IMG/VR virus record: IMGVR_UViG_3300032287_002524
Span: 1 to 31,166 of that record
Origin: a virus
Reading direction: 5' to 3' (one strand)
Length of the DNA stretch: 31,166 bases
In this document: piece by piece, positions 15,327-21,916 of the stretch
Layout of the letters: each line of letters begins with the position of its first letter
How positions within the stretch are numbered: position 1 is the stretch's first letter
Translations under genes and position numbers: made by a program
Notes under the pieces: model-generated
The model's input: only the letters and a program-made list of their open reading frames with translations
The model's database searches: none
What the model was told of the DNA's origin: nothing

Positions 15327-15658
15327 GCCGCCAGCCTCCCCGCCATCATGTGCAGCATCTCCGCCTGGGCCTTGCGCGCCCGAGCTATGCGCATCCTTGT
15401 CCGTCCCAGCGGCGCCGGTTTCTTCGCATCCTTTGCCTCGCCAAACCCCCACACCTTTGCACTGGCGCACCCGCGAGCGTCTTTGCGCCACTCACACACA
15501 TGGATCACCTTGTGCTTGTGTAGCTCGCGCATGAATCGCGCCACAGTCAGGTAGTGCAACCCCACATGGTCGGCCAGCTCCTGGTACGTCATGTCAGTGT
15601 CCATCAGCGCCTTCATTAGCCGCGCGTTAGACGACGCATTGATTCGCTTAAATCTCAT
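15323..15658 (-). CDS. Winged-helix DNA-binding protein
   Basis: 111 residues from the ATG at 15658, which overlaps the methyltransferase stop as ATGA. Residues about 20-55 (MTYQELADHVGLHYLTVARF, then RELHKHKVIHV) form a helix-turn-helix with a following strand pair, as in winged-helix regulators. The C-terminus is strongly basic and helical. This may be a transcription regulator of the left operon or an accessory DNA-binding protein. No specific family name can be given. Confidence 0.55.
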   Translation of the reverse strand: MRFKRINASSNARLMKALMDTDMTYQELADHVGLHYLTVARFMRELHKHKVIHVCEWRKDARGCASAKVWGFGEAKDAKKPAPLGRTRMRIARARKAQAEMLHMMAGRLAA

Positions 15659-16583
15659 TCTGTAAGCAGTCTCCATGCTGCTGCGGCGCAGGCTGGCACT
15701 TGTCCATTTCCAAGGCTTTTAAGTCTGTCCACCCGAGCGGCCACCCCATCAGCCACTCGACCCACATCGGGTTCAGACGCATACCAGTCTGGTACTCCAC
15801 CACCCAGTCGAGCATGTCTGAACGACTCTTCCCATCCTTGCGTATCATGGAATTCCCCCCCCCCTTGTGAATCCGCGCCGTCGGCGTCGGCCGGCGATTG
15901 ACTGCTACGGTCAGCGATTGCTGCAGATTGATGCCCTGCGCCGCCTTGTCGACCTGACGCCGCTCCCAGTTCGCCACGTTGCCCGTTTGCTTGGAGTCCC
16001 CGGCGTTCGGCGTCGGCCATTTCTGCACAGCAGTCGCCAACCCGTCGCCACTGGTCGCTGACGCTCCCTTGCGGTTGTAGTTCCCGCACACCGTTGGCGT
16101 AGGCCACAAGCCAAAATCTGTCGCGCTGGTGCGGCGCCCCAACGTCGGCAGCTCCCAGCACTGTCCATCGACAGTCATACCCGAGCGCGGCCAAGTCACC
16201 GAGCACGACTCCGAGTCCTCGAGTAATGAGTGCTGGACTGTTTTCCACAAAGACGTACTTGGGTCGAACCTCGCCAATGATCCGCGCCATGTGTCGCCAC
16301 ATTCCGCTGCGCTCGCCTGTGATGCCTGCGCCTTTTCCTGCAACGCTGATGTCTTGGCACGGAAAGCCGCCAGATACGACATCAACAACCCCCGCCCACG
16401 GTCTGCCGTCAAAGGTCTGAACGTCATCCCAAACCGGGAAAGGCGGGAGAAGGCCGTCATTCTGTCGGGCGGCAAGTACGCAAGCTGCGTATGGCTCCCA
16501 TTCGACTGCGCAGACTGTTCGCCATCCGAGCAACTTTCCGGCAAGTATTCCGCCACCAGCGCCCGCGAATAGAGATAGCTCAT
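15648..16583 (-). CDS. Overlapping second frame inside the methyltransferase locus
   Basis: 311 residues in another frame of the same strand, from the ATG at 16583 (9 bases after the AGGAG that also serves the methyltransferase GTG) to a stop 7 bases past the methyltransferase stop. The text is not random. FGMTFRPLTADRGRGLL, FDPSTSLWKTVQHSLL, TWPRSGMTVDGQ, two WPTP blocks and LNPMWVEWLMGWPLGWTDL recur, to my memory, in phage proteins labelled hypothetical or methyltransferase-like. Either this is a true dual-coded product, perhaps a partner of the methylase, or the family is itself a shadow of conserved methylase genes. Role unknown. Confidence 0.5.
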   Translation of the reverse strand: MSYLYSRALVAEYLPESCSDGEQSAQSNGSHTQLAYLPPDRMTAFSRLSRFGMTFRPLTADRGRGLLMSYLAAFRAKTSALQEKAQASQASAAECGDTWRGSLARFDPSTSLWKTVQHSLLEDSESCSVTWPRSGMTVDGQCWELPTLGRRTSATDFGLWPTPTVCGNYNRKGASATSGDGLATAVQKWPTPNAGDSKQTGNVANWERRQVDKAAQGINLQQSLTVAVNRRPTPTARIHKGGGNSMIRKDGKSRSDMLDWVVEYQTGMRLNPMWVEWLMGWPLGWTDLKALEMDKCQPAPQQHGDCLQNEI

Positions 16584-16587
16584 TCAC
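15655..16587 (-). CDS. C5-cytosine DNA methyltransferase
   Basis: 310 residues with a GTG start at 16587 that overlaps the previous stop as GTGA; AGGAG lies 5 bases upstream. Conserved motifs run in order: I (ELSLFAGAGGG, 3-13), IV with catalytic Cys77 (GGFPCQDIS), VI (FVENSPAL, 113-120, Ser in place of the usual Val), VIII (HQRDRFWLVA, 153-162) and X (LGNGQVPACAA, 292-302). The target-recognition region (about 165-275) is variable. It would methylate phage DNA, probably against host restriction; no partner restriction enzyme is seen. A G10 run (15855-15864) lies in the coding sequence. A second long frame covers nearly the whole gene. Confidence 0.85.
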   Translation of the reverse strand: MNELSLFAGAGGGILAGKLLGWRTVCAVEWEPYAACVLAARQNDGLLPPFPVWDDVQTFDGRPWAGVVDVVSGGFPCQDISVAGKGAGITGERSGMWRHMARIIGEVRPKYVFVENSPALITRGLGVVLGDLAALGYDCRWTVLGAADVGAPHQRDRFWLVAYANGVRELQPQGSVSDQWRRVGDCCAEMADAERRGLQANGQRGELGAASGRQGGAGHQSAAIADRSSQSPADADGADSQGGGEFHDTQGWEESFRHARLGGGVPDWYASEPDVGRVADGVAARVDRLKSLGNGQVPACAAAAWRLLTE

Positions 16588-16757
16588 CGAGGCTCCTGCA
16601 CCACATATCCATGATTTCGCAGCAGTCGCGCAGCGGCACGCAACTTAGGCGTGAGCTTGTCGCGCTTTTTCTTTGGCCTGCCTGCATGCGGCACCCACTG
16701 CTGTCCGAATGTCTCTTTCATCTGCGGCAAGTGCTTTGTGTCAAAAGGGCTTGTCAC
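16584..16757 (-). CDS. Small basic protein
   Basis: 57 residues from a GTG at 16757 overlapping the previous stop as GTGA. The centre and C-terminus are basic and helical (HAGRPKKKRDKLTPKLRAAA, then RLLRNHGYVVQEPR). The text QQWVPHAGRPKKK suggests a short nucleic-acid-binding peptide. Its stop overlaps the methyltransferase start, so the two are coupled. Not recognised. Confidence 0.5.
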   Translation of the reverse strand: MTSPFDTKHLPQMKETFGQQWVPHAGRPKKKRDKLTPKLRAAARLLRNHGYVVQEPR

Positions 16758-17002
16758 AGCTCCATCTCCATTTGCTGCCGCACTGCGTTTACCCGCGCCC
16801 ACGCATCGATGTCGAGAGCAAGTTCGTCGTGACTGGGCCGCCAGGGCGTTAACGGCTTTTCTTCCGTGACGCGGAACACGTCGTCTCGTTGCGTGACAAC
16901 CATGCGCACCTGGCCATCCGAGCGCACGCGCATTTCGTAGCGGGTTGTGGCGCTGCTGTTCATGCTGTCCAGCAGTGCGCGGGGTGATTGCTTGGCTGGC
17001 AT
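16754..17002 (-). CDS. Hypothetical protein
   Basis: 82 residues from the ATG at 17002; a TTG at 17011 that overlaps the previous stop as TTGA is the alternative start. The middle is beta-rich (TTRYEMRVRSDGQVRMVVTQ) and the C-terminus is an acidic helix with two Trp. It lies between the SSB-like gene and the small basic protein with overlaps at both ends. No domain recognised. Confidence 0.5.
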   Translation of the reverse strand: MPAKQSPRALLDSMNSSATTRYEMRVRSDGQVRMVVTQRDDVFRVTEEKPLTPWRPSHDELALDIDAWARVNAVRQQMEMEL

Positions 17003-17007
17003 GGCGG

Positions 17008-17271
17008 TCAAAACGGGATATCGCTGTCCATGTCTGACATCGACGGCGCGGGTTTCTGTGCGGGCTTGGGCTGCGCAGCCGGCGCATCCTTTGGCTTAAC
17101 CGTCAGCGAGTAAAAACTTCCGGTTCCGTCGTTGCGCTGTTTGAGCCAGCCATCAACCCAATACTCAATGCCGGCAACATTCAGTTGCCCTTTGATGTCG
17201 GGGTGCTTCTCTGTTTCCTTACGCAGATTCTTGGAGATGATTCCGCGATTCGTGTCGTCGTATTGCGTCAT
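17008..17271 (-). CDS. SSB-like protein with acidic tail
   Basis: 87 residues, strong RBS (AAGGAG). The N-terminal 60 residues (NRGIISKNLRKETEKHPDIK, then GIEYWVDGWLKQ and FYSLTVKPKD) match a small phage family that looks like a minimal OB-fold. After an Ala/Pro/Lys linker the protein ends DMDSDIPF, the acidic tail typical of single-strand DNA-binding proteins that recruit partners. Encoded with Erf and a YqaJ nuclease, it fits a role in protecting or handing over single strands during recombination or replication. DNA binding is inferred. Confidence 0.6.
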   Translation of the reverse strand: MTQYDDTNRGIISKNLRKETEKHPDIKGQLNVAGIEYWVDGWLKQRNDGTGSFYSLTVKPKDAPAAQPKPAQKPAPSMSDMDSDIPF

Positions 17272-20302: not shown

Positions 20303-20716
20303 GTCTAAACGCGGAGCCGACGCGGCGGCGCCGGCGGCAGCGGCGTAGGTTTGCTGAAAGGCGCGCATTGCGGCTTTGCCCGCTTCGTCCAGGCTTGCGT
20401 AGTCACGCAAGAATTGTTCTTCGGCGCTTAAAGGTGCGGTGCTCCCGGGTAGCAACTGTTCCGGAGGAATTCGGTACAAGCCGGCCAATTTCAGTAAATC
20501 TACTACTGAAATCGCGTTTACCCCAGTCTCCCAGTTTCCAATTGCGGATTTTGCGCAGCCGACTTGCTTAGCGACATCCGCCAATGACATTTCGGCGCGA
20601 ACTCGCGCGGCTCGCAGCAGCGCGCCGAGCTGGGCGTTGAACTTTGGGTCTTTCTCAAGCACCAAATCAGCGTACATCAACCAGCGGATGCAAACGGCCT
20701 CAAGCTGTGGACACAT
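20288..20716 (-). CDS. CI-like phage repressor (short, HTH only)
   Basis: 142 residues from the ATG at 20716 (GAGGA just upstream); starts at 20677 or 20746 cannot be excluded. Residues about 29-89 are a helix-turn-helix of the XRE/Cro-CI family (LGALLRAARVRAEMSLADVA, then KQVGCAKSAIGNWETGVNAI and IPPEQLL). There is no S24/LexA-type cleavage domain: the remaining 50 residues are helical and Ala-rich. Divergent from cro with operators at both PL and PR, it is the immunity repressor by context. Without the protease fold it should not be inactivated by RecA-stimulated self-cleavage. Confidence 0.75.
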   Translation of the reverse strand: MCPQLEAVCIRWLMYADLVLEKDPKFNAQLGALLRAARVRAEMSLADVAKQVGCAKSAIGNWETGVNAISVVDLLKLAGLYRIPPEQLLPGSTAPLSAEEQFLRDYASLDEAGKAAMRAFQQTYAAAAGAAASAPRLDKKRW

Positions 20717-20737
20717 GCCGTCCTCACGGTGTAGACT
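20708..20737 (+). promoter_or_regulatory. Right early promoter (PR-like) with operator
   Basis: TGGACA (20708-20713) is followed after 16 bp by TGTAGA (20730-20735) or after 18 bp by TAGACT (20732-20737). The operator CGTCCTCACGGTGTAGAC (20719-20736) covers the -10. The geometry matches the left promoter. The expected RNA start is about 20742-20744, at the cro start codon. Confidence 0.55.
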
Positions 20738-20744
20738 GCTATTC

Positions 20745-20954
20745 ATGACGTCAGACAACTCCTCAATCGCAAAAGCAGTTCAAGCCGCAGGCGGTCTCAC
20801 CGCCCTCGCAAACTTGGTTGGCACAACCAAGGGCGTTGTGTGGGCGTGGGTGGATCGCGGCCGATGCCCGCCGCAGTACGCAAAAAAGATTGAACTGGCA
20901 GTCGGCGGACTTGTGACGGCCCGCGAATTGCGACCCGACGTGTTCGCTGAATAA
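20745..20954 (+). CDS. Cro/YdaS-like regulator
   Basis: 69 residues. The text (SIAKAVQAAGGLTALANLVG, then VVWAWVDRGRCPPQYAKKIE and VTARELRPDVFAE) matches the small Cro/YdaS-type DNA-binding family, 'A...GG...LA..LG....V..W..RG.P......IE...G.VT..ELRPD'. It is divergent from the repressor and would bind the shared operators to favour lytic growth. No Shine-Dalgarno sequence precedes the ATG, and the promoter predicts an RNA starting at or next to it, so translation may be leaderless. Confidence 0.75.
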   Translation: MTSDNSSIAKAVQAAGGLTALANLVGTTKGVVWAWVDRGRCPPQYAKKIELAVGGLVTARELRPDVFAE

Positions 20955-21004: not shown

Positions 21005-21142
21005 TGCACGCGCGCTGTGGATGTCGGTGCTTTGTCCCTAGCCCAGTCGGGGGGGGGGCTGCTGTTGGCATGTCTTTGTCTCCTACAGCGAATTTACCGG
21101 CACGCGAAATGATTAGGCAATTGCTCTAAAGGATTAGTTCTT

Positions 21143-21916
21143 TTGAATTACTACGCGTTCCATCTCGGCGACTACGCGGCACACACATCGCACCTCGATC
21201 CGCTGGAGGACATTGCTTATCGCCGGCTGATCGACCTGCACATGCTGCTGGAGCGCCCGCTGCCGCTTGATGTCGATGAGCTGGCTCGCAAGATTCGGAT
21301 GCGTGACCACGCCGCAATTGTGCGCGACGTGCTGAACGAGTTTTTCATCCGCGCCGACGACGGTTGGACGAACGACCGTTGCATGAAAGAAATCACCAAG
21401 TACCAGTCGAACAAGGACGCTGCCAAACGCGCAGGACAGGCGTCTGCTGAACGTCGCACACAGAAAAAAGCAACGCCCGTTGAACGACCGTTGAACGACC
21501 GTTCAACGCAACACGACGAGCACGTTCAACCAACCAAGAACCATAAACCAAGAACCAATAACCAAGAACCAGAACAAAGAGTAGGCCAGCGCGCGGAGTC
21601 GATGCCGCACGAATTCCCTGGCCCTACTGAGCTGGACTGGTGTGAATCGGAGCGACCAGACCTGTCGGCAGGGGCCGTAGCGCTGCAGTTTCGGGATTAC
21701 CACCTTGCCCACGGCACGGCGATGAAGTCCTGGCCTGCTGCGTGGCGAACGTGGGTTCGCAAGGAGCGACAGCACGCCGCTGCACGCGCATCGCCCGCAC
21801 TGACCGCGCTGGATCGGCAGGCAGAAGTCATCGCCAGGATCACGGGCACTGCGAATCGAATCGTTGACATCGAGGGCGAAATTGAGCGACCAAAACTTAC
21901 CGCTGCACGCAATTGA
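21143..21916 (+). CDS. DUF1376 replication initiation protein
   Basis: 257 residues from a TTG at 21143 (AAAGGA about 9 bases upstream). The N-terminal 90 residues (YYAFHLGDYAAHTSHLDPLE, then IAYRRLIDLHMLLERPLP) are DUF1376, a winged-helix-like domain found in phage replication initiators. The middle (about 105-150) is a low-complexity Asn/Gln/Lys/Pro linker encoded by direct repeats that look like origin iterons. The C-terminal part (SWPAAWRTWVRKERQHA) resembles the end of DnaT/replication-O-like proteins. It probably binds the origin inside its own gene and brings in the helicase loader encoded next. Confidence 0.75.
   Translation: MNYYAFHLGDYAAHTSHLDPLEDIAYRRLIDLHMLLERPLPLDVDELARKIRMRDHAAIVRDVLNEFFIRADDGWTNDRCMKEITKYQSNKDAAKRAGQASAERRTQKKATPVERPLNDRSTQHDEHVQPTKNHKPRTNNQEPEQRVGQRAESMPHEFPGPTELDWCESERPDLSAGAVALQFRDYHLAHGTAMKSWPAAWRTWVRKERQHAAARASPALTALDRQAEVIARITGTANRIVDIEGEIERPKLTAARN
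21479..21571. repeat. Iteron cluster, candidate replication origin
   Basis: Two tandem 11-bp copies of GTTGAACGACC (21479-21489 and 21490-21500) are followed by inverted GTTCAAC at 21501 and 21524. Three exact copies of AACCAAGAACCA follow at 21532-21543, 21546-21557 and 21560-21571, with a 14-bp period. All lie inside the replication-protein gene, as the lambda origin lies inside O. The second block is A-rich on this strand. Confidence 0.6.

Follow-up and report, generated by a model that had tools for sequence, protein, structure and literature searches.

Both reading frames of the phage methylase locus described here are open and under purifying selection, and together they probably (with a probability of roughly 0.8) encode the two subunits of a C5 methylase, both read from one DNA segment: an alpha subunit (frame A) carrying motifs I-VIII and X, and a beta subunit (frame B) carrying the target-recognition domain (TRD) and motif IX. 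Ribosomes would start both chains at an overlapping GTGAATG, B being started from its own ATG. The alpha chain would then comprise motifs I-VIII for catalysis and AdoMet binding, a poorly conserved linker, and the C-terminal motif X, and the beta chain would supply a TRD made of exchangeable PTP modules plus motif IX; once assembled, the pair would recognise the sequence determined by beta. On this reading, B would be translated and would bind A, the A/B pair would methylate DNA, and its specificity would be set by beta.

The locus and its two predicted proteins

The window, i.e., the whole 31 kb IMG/VR virus record that was analysed, is, by its gene content, that of a temperate phage. Genes for an integrase, an exonuclease, a single-strand binding protein, and a repressor lie close to the methylase locus, and the terminase, portal, and virion genes are located elsewhere in the window. 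Within 15648-16587 on the minus strand, two near-fully overlapping ORFs share ~930 nt of one strand (Table 1), with B codon positions 1, 2, and 3 corresponding to A positions 2, 3, and 1, respectively. Both ORFs lie where the initial annotation had placed two full-length genes over one methylase locus, and all of the peptide motifs that it quoted are found in them.

Table 1. Features of the methylase locus in window coordinates, with the observations on which each assignment is based.
Feature	Position	Strand	Observations
Frame A, proposed alpha subunit with C5 methylase motifs I-VIII and X	15655..16587	-	ORF, 310 aa, GTG start; PF00145 7.8e-34 over residues 2-168 only; phrog_363 1.2e-69
Frame B, proposed beta subunit, +1 frame, fully overlapping	15648..16583	-	ORF, 311 aa, ATG 4 nt downstream of A start; phrog_1008 3.5e-34
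Shared start GTGAATG (GTG, A start; TGA, frame-B stop; ATG, B start)	16581..16587	-	
Catalytic half of A (motifs I-VIII); overlapping B residues 1-165 also conserved	16090..16587	-	Substitutions A3>A1>A2; AF2 fold 1-168; four-fold divergence reduced where B is conserved
Putative TRD region: PTP-type modules (frame B), passenger linker (frame A)	15780..16112	-	Differences mostly at B position 3; A pLDDT <50 over 169-293
Motif IX-like segment LNPMWVEWLMGWPLGWTDL, frame B	15720..15776	-	Nearly invariant in 72 sequences
Motif X (GNGQVP), frame A; B end overlaps	15691..15720	-	Dual constraint
Poly-G tract, G10 on the coding strand, within the TRD region	15855..15864	-	Length varies in relatives

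The start of B is an ATG in all 154 loci, and the A codons beneath it are almost frozen (AAT in 128/130 and GAG in 123/130). Immediately upstream, a 167-codon ORF of the window (16584-17087, minus strand) shares the frame of B, and its TGA adjoins the ATG of B. Of 125 relatives, 55 likewise have 60 or more open codons in this frame that run up to the start point of B; the other two frames give 4 and 36. Such stretches make it possible that B is started by re-initiation after the upstream gene.

According to the initial annotation, frame A encodes a complete C5 methyltransferase. Motifs I, IV, VI, VIII, and X are indeed present, the first four being those of the catalytic half of PF00145. The protein is not complete, however, since PF00145 is aligned only over profile positions 2-166 of 324, and A has no recognisable TRD and motif IX between motifs VIII and X, as a single-chain member of that family would. 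Comparison with 21 ordinary C5 methylases gives the same picture, with alignments over residues 3-168 only. Beyond residue 168, where neither PF00145 nor the ordinary enzymes align, no motif IX or TRD could be recognised in A. In the AF2 model, residues 1-168 are folded, residues 169-293 have pLDDT <50, and the motif X helix reaches ~88.

As for frame B, its match to PHROG 1008 covers profile positions 35-282 of 329 (6.5e-35 at the DNA level). The Pfam search with B gave nothing above the cut-off, NCBIfam has no model for it, and no solved structure was found by sequence search of the PDB; Pfam also gave nothing for B proteins of the split type described below. Lacking a Pfam or NCBIfam model, beta is overlooked in annotation or labelled as hypothetical or as a methylase. 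Labelling is erratic: both frames are annotated as methyltransferase in Paenibacillus phage Leyra, B alone is annotated (as hypothetical) in Pseudomonas phage phPA-G, and A alone is annotated in Acinetobacter phage ABMM1. The labels of PHROG 1008 and PHROG 363, the family of A ('DNA methyltransferase'), mention neither that the two are read from two frames of one DNA nor the probable TRD in PHROG 1008.

The ~150 N-terminal residues of B, which lie under motifs I-VIII, are conserved and have no known homology. They are followed by several PTP modules (e.g., PTVCGNYNRKGxSxxSGDGLATAV) and by a C-terminal motif, LNPxWVEWLMGWPxGWTDL, that is nearly invariant in the 72 sequences compared. In nearly all loci, motif X is situated 44 nt downstream of this WLMG motif; in ordinary C5 methylases, motif IX (LTPREcARlqGFPd) precedes motif X by ~20 residues. 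Profile comparison places the B motif of the split type in register with motif IX (E 0.001, probability 21%), and the motif of the window type alone falls in the same register without being significant. The designation of the WLMG motif as motif IX-like leans mainly on where it lies and on the split relatives. For B by itself, the AF2 model has no confident fold (mean pLDDT 56, pTM 0.26); this would be expected of a subunit whose folding depends on its partner, but equally of a non-protein.

Selection on the two frames

The window gene contains no frame-B stop, compared with a mean of 5.5 and a minimum of 1 in 200 synonymous shuffles of A, and its third frame has 13 stops. A separate stop count that gave 0 in both-open genes does so partly by construction, the genes having been picked as open in both frames. 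The set of 80 IMG/VR relatives, however, was retrieved by protein A only and is thus free of selection for B; it has 4 frame-B stops in total vs 444 expected from synonymous shuffling of A. Zero frame-B stops are found in 77 of 81 genes, the window included, while the third frame has ~17 stops per gene in these relatives. As a control, 26 ordinary C5 methylases from gammaproteobacterial genomes were shuffled in the same way and show 336 stops vs 350 expected; C5 methylases in general thus do not keep their +1 frame open. Changes that are silent in A therefore do not bring stops into B; the opposite outcome had been named in the initial annotation as evidence against a dual-coded pair, so its own test speaks for the pair. 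The synonymous-site comparison that it proposed also reveals extra constraint. In the I-VIII region, 0.40 of the four-fold sites of A differ vs 0.68 in ordinary C5 methylases of equal protein identity, a ratio that is approximate owing to the unequal base composition of the two sets, and the conservation of these sites peaks where that of B does. Part of the conservation of B across motifs I-VIII is, in turn, imposed by A.

Which frame carries which region was assessed by comparing differences per codon position in locally homologous stretches with 70-80% DNA identity; these local matches replaced a global alignment, which was uninformative in the TRD region because the modules differ. In the I-VIII region, the fractions of differences are.19,.11, and.40 at A1, A2, and A3, respectively, so A is the main frame there. 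In the TRD region the values are.48,.15, and.12, which corresponds to.15,.12, and.48 at B1, B2, and B3, and B is thus the coding frame; amino acid identity in this region is 81% for B vs 44% for A. The C-terminal part (A1 0.29, A2 0.13, A3 0.28) shows constraint in either frame: over its last ~30 codons, motif X is kept in A and the motif-IX-like segment in B. Even so, most loci retrieved by B have no stop in frame A across the TRD region, although ~3.5 frame-A stops would be expected there in a gene coding for B only. A is thus selected to reach motif X, with its sequence in the TRD region mattering little, and its reading of this region is mainly a passenger linker.

The initial annotation itself had cautioned that the second family may be a shadow of conserved methylase genes, i.e., that methylase codon usage keeps the +1 frame open and a false family has spread in databases. 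Such an explanation would account for the lack of a confident AF2 fold for B and for the fact that B has always been found over a C5 methylase. It does not account for the deficit of stops, which ordinary C5 methylases do not share, or for a TRD region that evolves as a coding frame in B and drifts in A. In the split type, moreover, B is conserved over parts in which many stops interrupt frame A, and a shadow is extremely improbable.

Matches to B were found in 88 phage records and five plasmids, and sequences with these patterns amount to 559 related stretches in IMG/VR and 370 in GTDB genomes. In a sample of 321 gammaproteobacterial genomes, 10 contain B and 96 have any PF00145 match. All 10 genomes with a phrog_1008 match, very diverged ones included, have an overlapping C5 methylase, and the same holds for every B inspected. 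No stand-alone B was encountered among 80 genome loci, the 321 gammaproteobacterial genomes, and phages, or in a search started from an actinophage B. Five candidates (L283, L300, L303, L305, and L306) were rejected, as in each of them B is overlapped by a methylase that had escaped the motif patterns. Double coding is conserved across phages and prophages of many bacterial phyla. In the literature on overlapping frames and on two-subunit or named methylases, no account of this arrangement in phages was found. Full-length same-strand dual coding under selection has rarely been demonstrated outside small viruses; the present case has the backing of a codon-position test with a control set, and it occurs widely among dsDNA phages.

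Split relatives and known two-chain methylases

In one group of relatives the division between the frames is different. This split type comprises L196 (Spirochaetia MAG), L230 (Paraburkholderia), and L237 (Kiritimatiellae MAG), as well as a group of actinophages and actinobacterial prophages to which Streptomyces phage Heather belongs (L083, L256-L275). Here A stops directly past motif VIII, and B holds the PTP modules (up to about six repeated modules in L230), the WLMG motif, and, in nearly all cases, motif X (GNG). Split-type and window-type B proteins align over their full length (E 2e-62). Across the TRD/IX/X part of B, frame A is broken and full of stops in the split type, so the conservation of B there is no by-product of A.

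The split relatives also bear on the role of B. The initial annotation had suggested a methylase and its partner or regulator; the partner agrees with selection on both frames, but B most likely carries the TRD and motif IX, which makes it a specificity subunit and not a regulator. If B did have a separate role (as a regulator, an anti-restriction protein, or a methylase inhibitor), A would have to be active alone with a novel TRD. The ~150 conserved N-terminal residues of B, with neither known homology nor a sequence match to a solved structure, might be taken to hint at such a role. The protein encoded by the TRD region, however, is conserved in B and not in A, the corresponding part of A is unstructured in the AF2 model and has no motif IX, and motif X itself sits in B in the split relatives, all of which makes a separate role very unlikely.

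M.AquI and M.EcoHK31I are known examples of C5 methylases that naturally consist of two polypeptides, and fragment complementation is established, also for M.SssI fragments (PMC3404938). In M.EcoHK31I (YGGCCR), the large chain carries motifs I-VIII and X and the small chain motif IX, both chains are required, and the TRD is assigned by prediction to the large subunit (PMC3404938). M.AquI (CYCGRG) is naturally split into alpha and beta, of which the second holds the distal TRD together with motifs IX-X (PMC3404938). The layout of M.AquI resembles that of the split relatives L196, L230, and L237. The variable region of M.AquI is divided between the chains; the window type keeps motif X in alpha. 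For the window type, the proposed motif layout is that of M.EcoHK31I except for the TRD: I-VIII and X are clear in A, and B has a putative IX-like motif (E 0.001 for the split type only, the window type being not significant). The beta chain of M.EcoHK31I was reportedly described in 1995 as read in an alternative frame within the alpha gene, and in the A/B pair, too, the second chain is encoded in an overlapping frame of the first. In contrast to the predicted alpha location in M.EcoHK31I, the TRD here lies in the overlapping frame according to the codon positions. Furthermore, B (311 aa) is about as long as A, while the second polypeptide of M.EcoHK31I is smaller, and the two layouts are compared at the level of motif descriptions. 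Multispecific phage C5 methylases of the SPR and phi3T type have tandem exchangeable TRD modules in frame with their catalytic motifs. The repeated PTP modules suggest a likeness to this type, but here they are located in the other frame.

A programmed +1 frameshift from A to B just past motif VIII, the foremost alternative as to mechanism, would instead give a single chain with the TRD and motif IX in cis, leaving the start of B unused. In the split relatives such a shift would restore the canonical order I-VIII, TRD-IX-X, and their alpha stops, right past motif VIII, are mostly TGA, often with C next. A cis fusion should also work, given that M.AquI-like fragments complement in trans (PMC3404938). 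However, no conserved slippery heptamer was found at the split-type alpha stops, and window-type motif X is in frame A only, so that the shifted chain would be without it. The ATG of B found at every locus, together with a B frame that is open and constrained upstream of motif VIII, would also be unneeded by a shifted product. A frameshift is therefore unlikely, and two separately started chains are the preferred reading.

Further arrangements were observed among the relatives. L278, L281, and L284 were considered as ordinary single-frame enzymes and rejected, as their +1 frame still has PTP modules; they represent a third arrangement, with PTP modules in +1, but with frame A holding both the WLMG motif and motif X. 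In L203 (Gallionella MAG), an indel in the I-VIII region shifts the later catalytic motifs and motif X to the B frame, and the part of B with the TRD to the third frame. Frame A of L306 is split by an apparent intein with a homing-type insert inside the PCQ motif, and frame B begins after the insert. In L083 (Streptomyces phage Heather), gp36 probably begins upstream of its annotated start (1768), as conservation of the B frame extends up to an ATG overlapping motif IV codons (ISNAG in A).

Possible module exchange and the poly-G tract

In the window and nine near relatives, the length of the G tract at 15855-15864 lies between G9 and G12. Among these relatives it is G10 in L001, L002, L003, and L005, G9 in L015, G11 in L006, L007, and L008, and G12 with a one-base deletion in L004. 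Lengths other than 10 shift both frames. With G11, A ends just past the tract, B is fused to the motif X frame of A, and motif IX ends up in the third frame. A tract of variable length might thus be a phase switch, disabling the two subunits together. It is also possible that the variation reflects homopolymer assembly errors, contigs being its sole source. Titles and abstracts of the literature on phase variation yielded nothing bearing on this arrangement. A different TRD module, with a constant G9 tract (GTGCGGGGGGGGGCAAGAATG or GTTCGGGGGGGGGCAAGAATG), is present in 7/7 loci (L013, L017, L018, L026, L033, L102, and L104).

More tentatively, the locus may represent a large and old class of C5 methylases from phages and prophages, spread over many phyla, in which specificity is encoded in an unannotated +1 frame and TRD modules are swapped as DNA cassettes open in both frames, with the poly-G tract of the window lineage serving as a phase switch that turns off both subunits. 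The chances of this broader picture holding as a whole are put at well under even. If the two-subunit reading is right, predicting specificity or cloning from the annotated frame alone takes the wrong half of the enzyme, and a codon-optimised frame A would show no activity when tested, since frame B is lost on optimisation. It would also mean that an entire protein family is without a Pfam or NCBIfam model. The evolution of a modular specificity subunit locked to another reading frame becomes testable in such a system.

A second G10 tract of the window, at 21049-21058 on the plus strand, is flanked by a repressor-like ORF (20439-20954) on one side and a primosomal-protein-like ORF (21143-21916) on the other.
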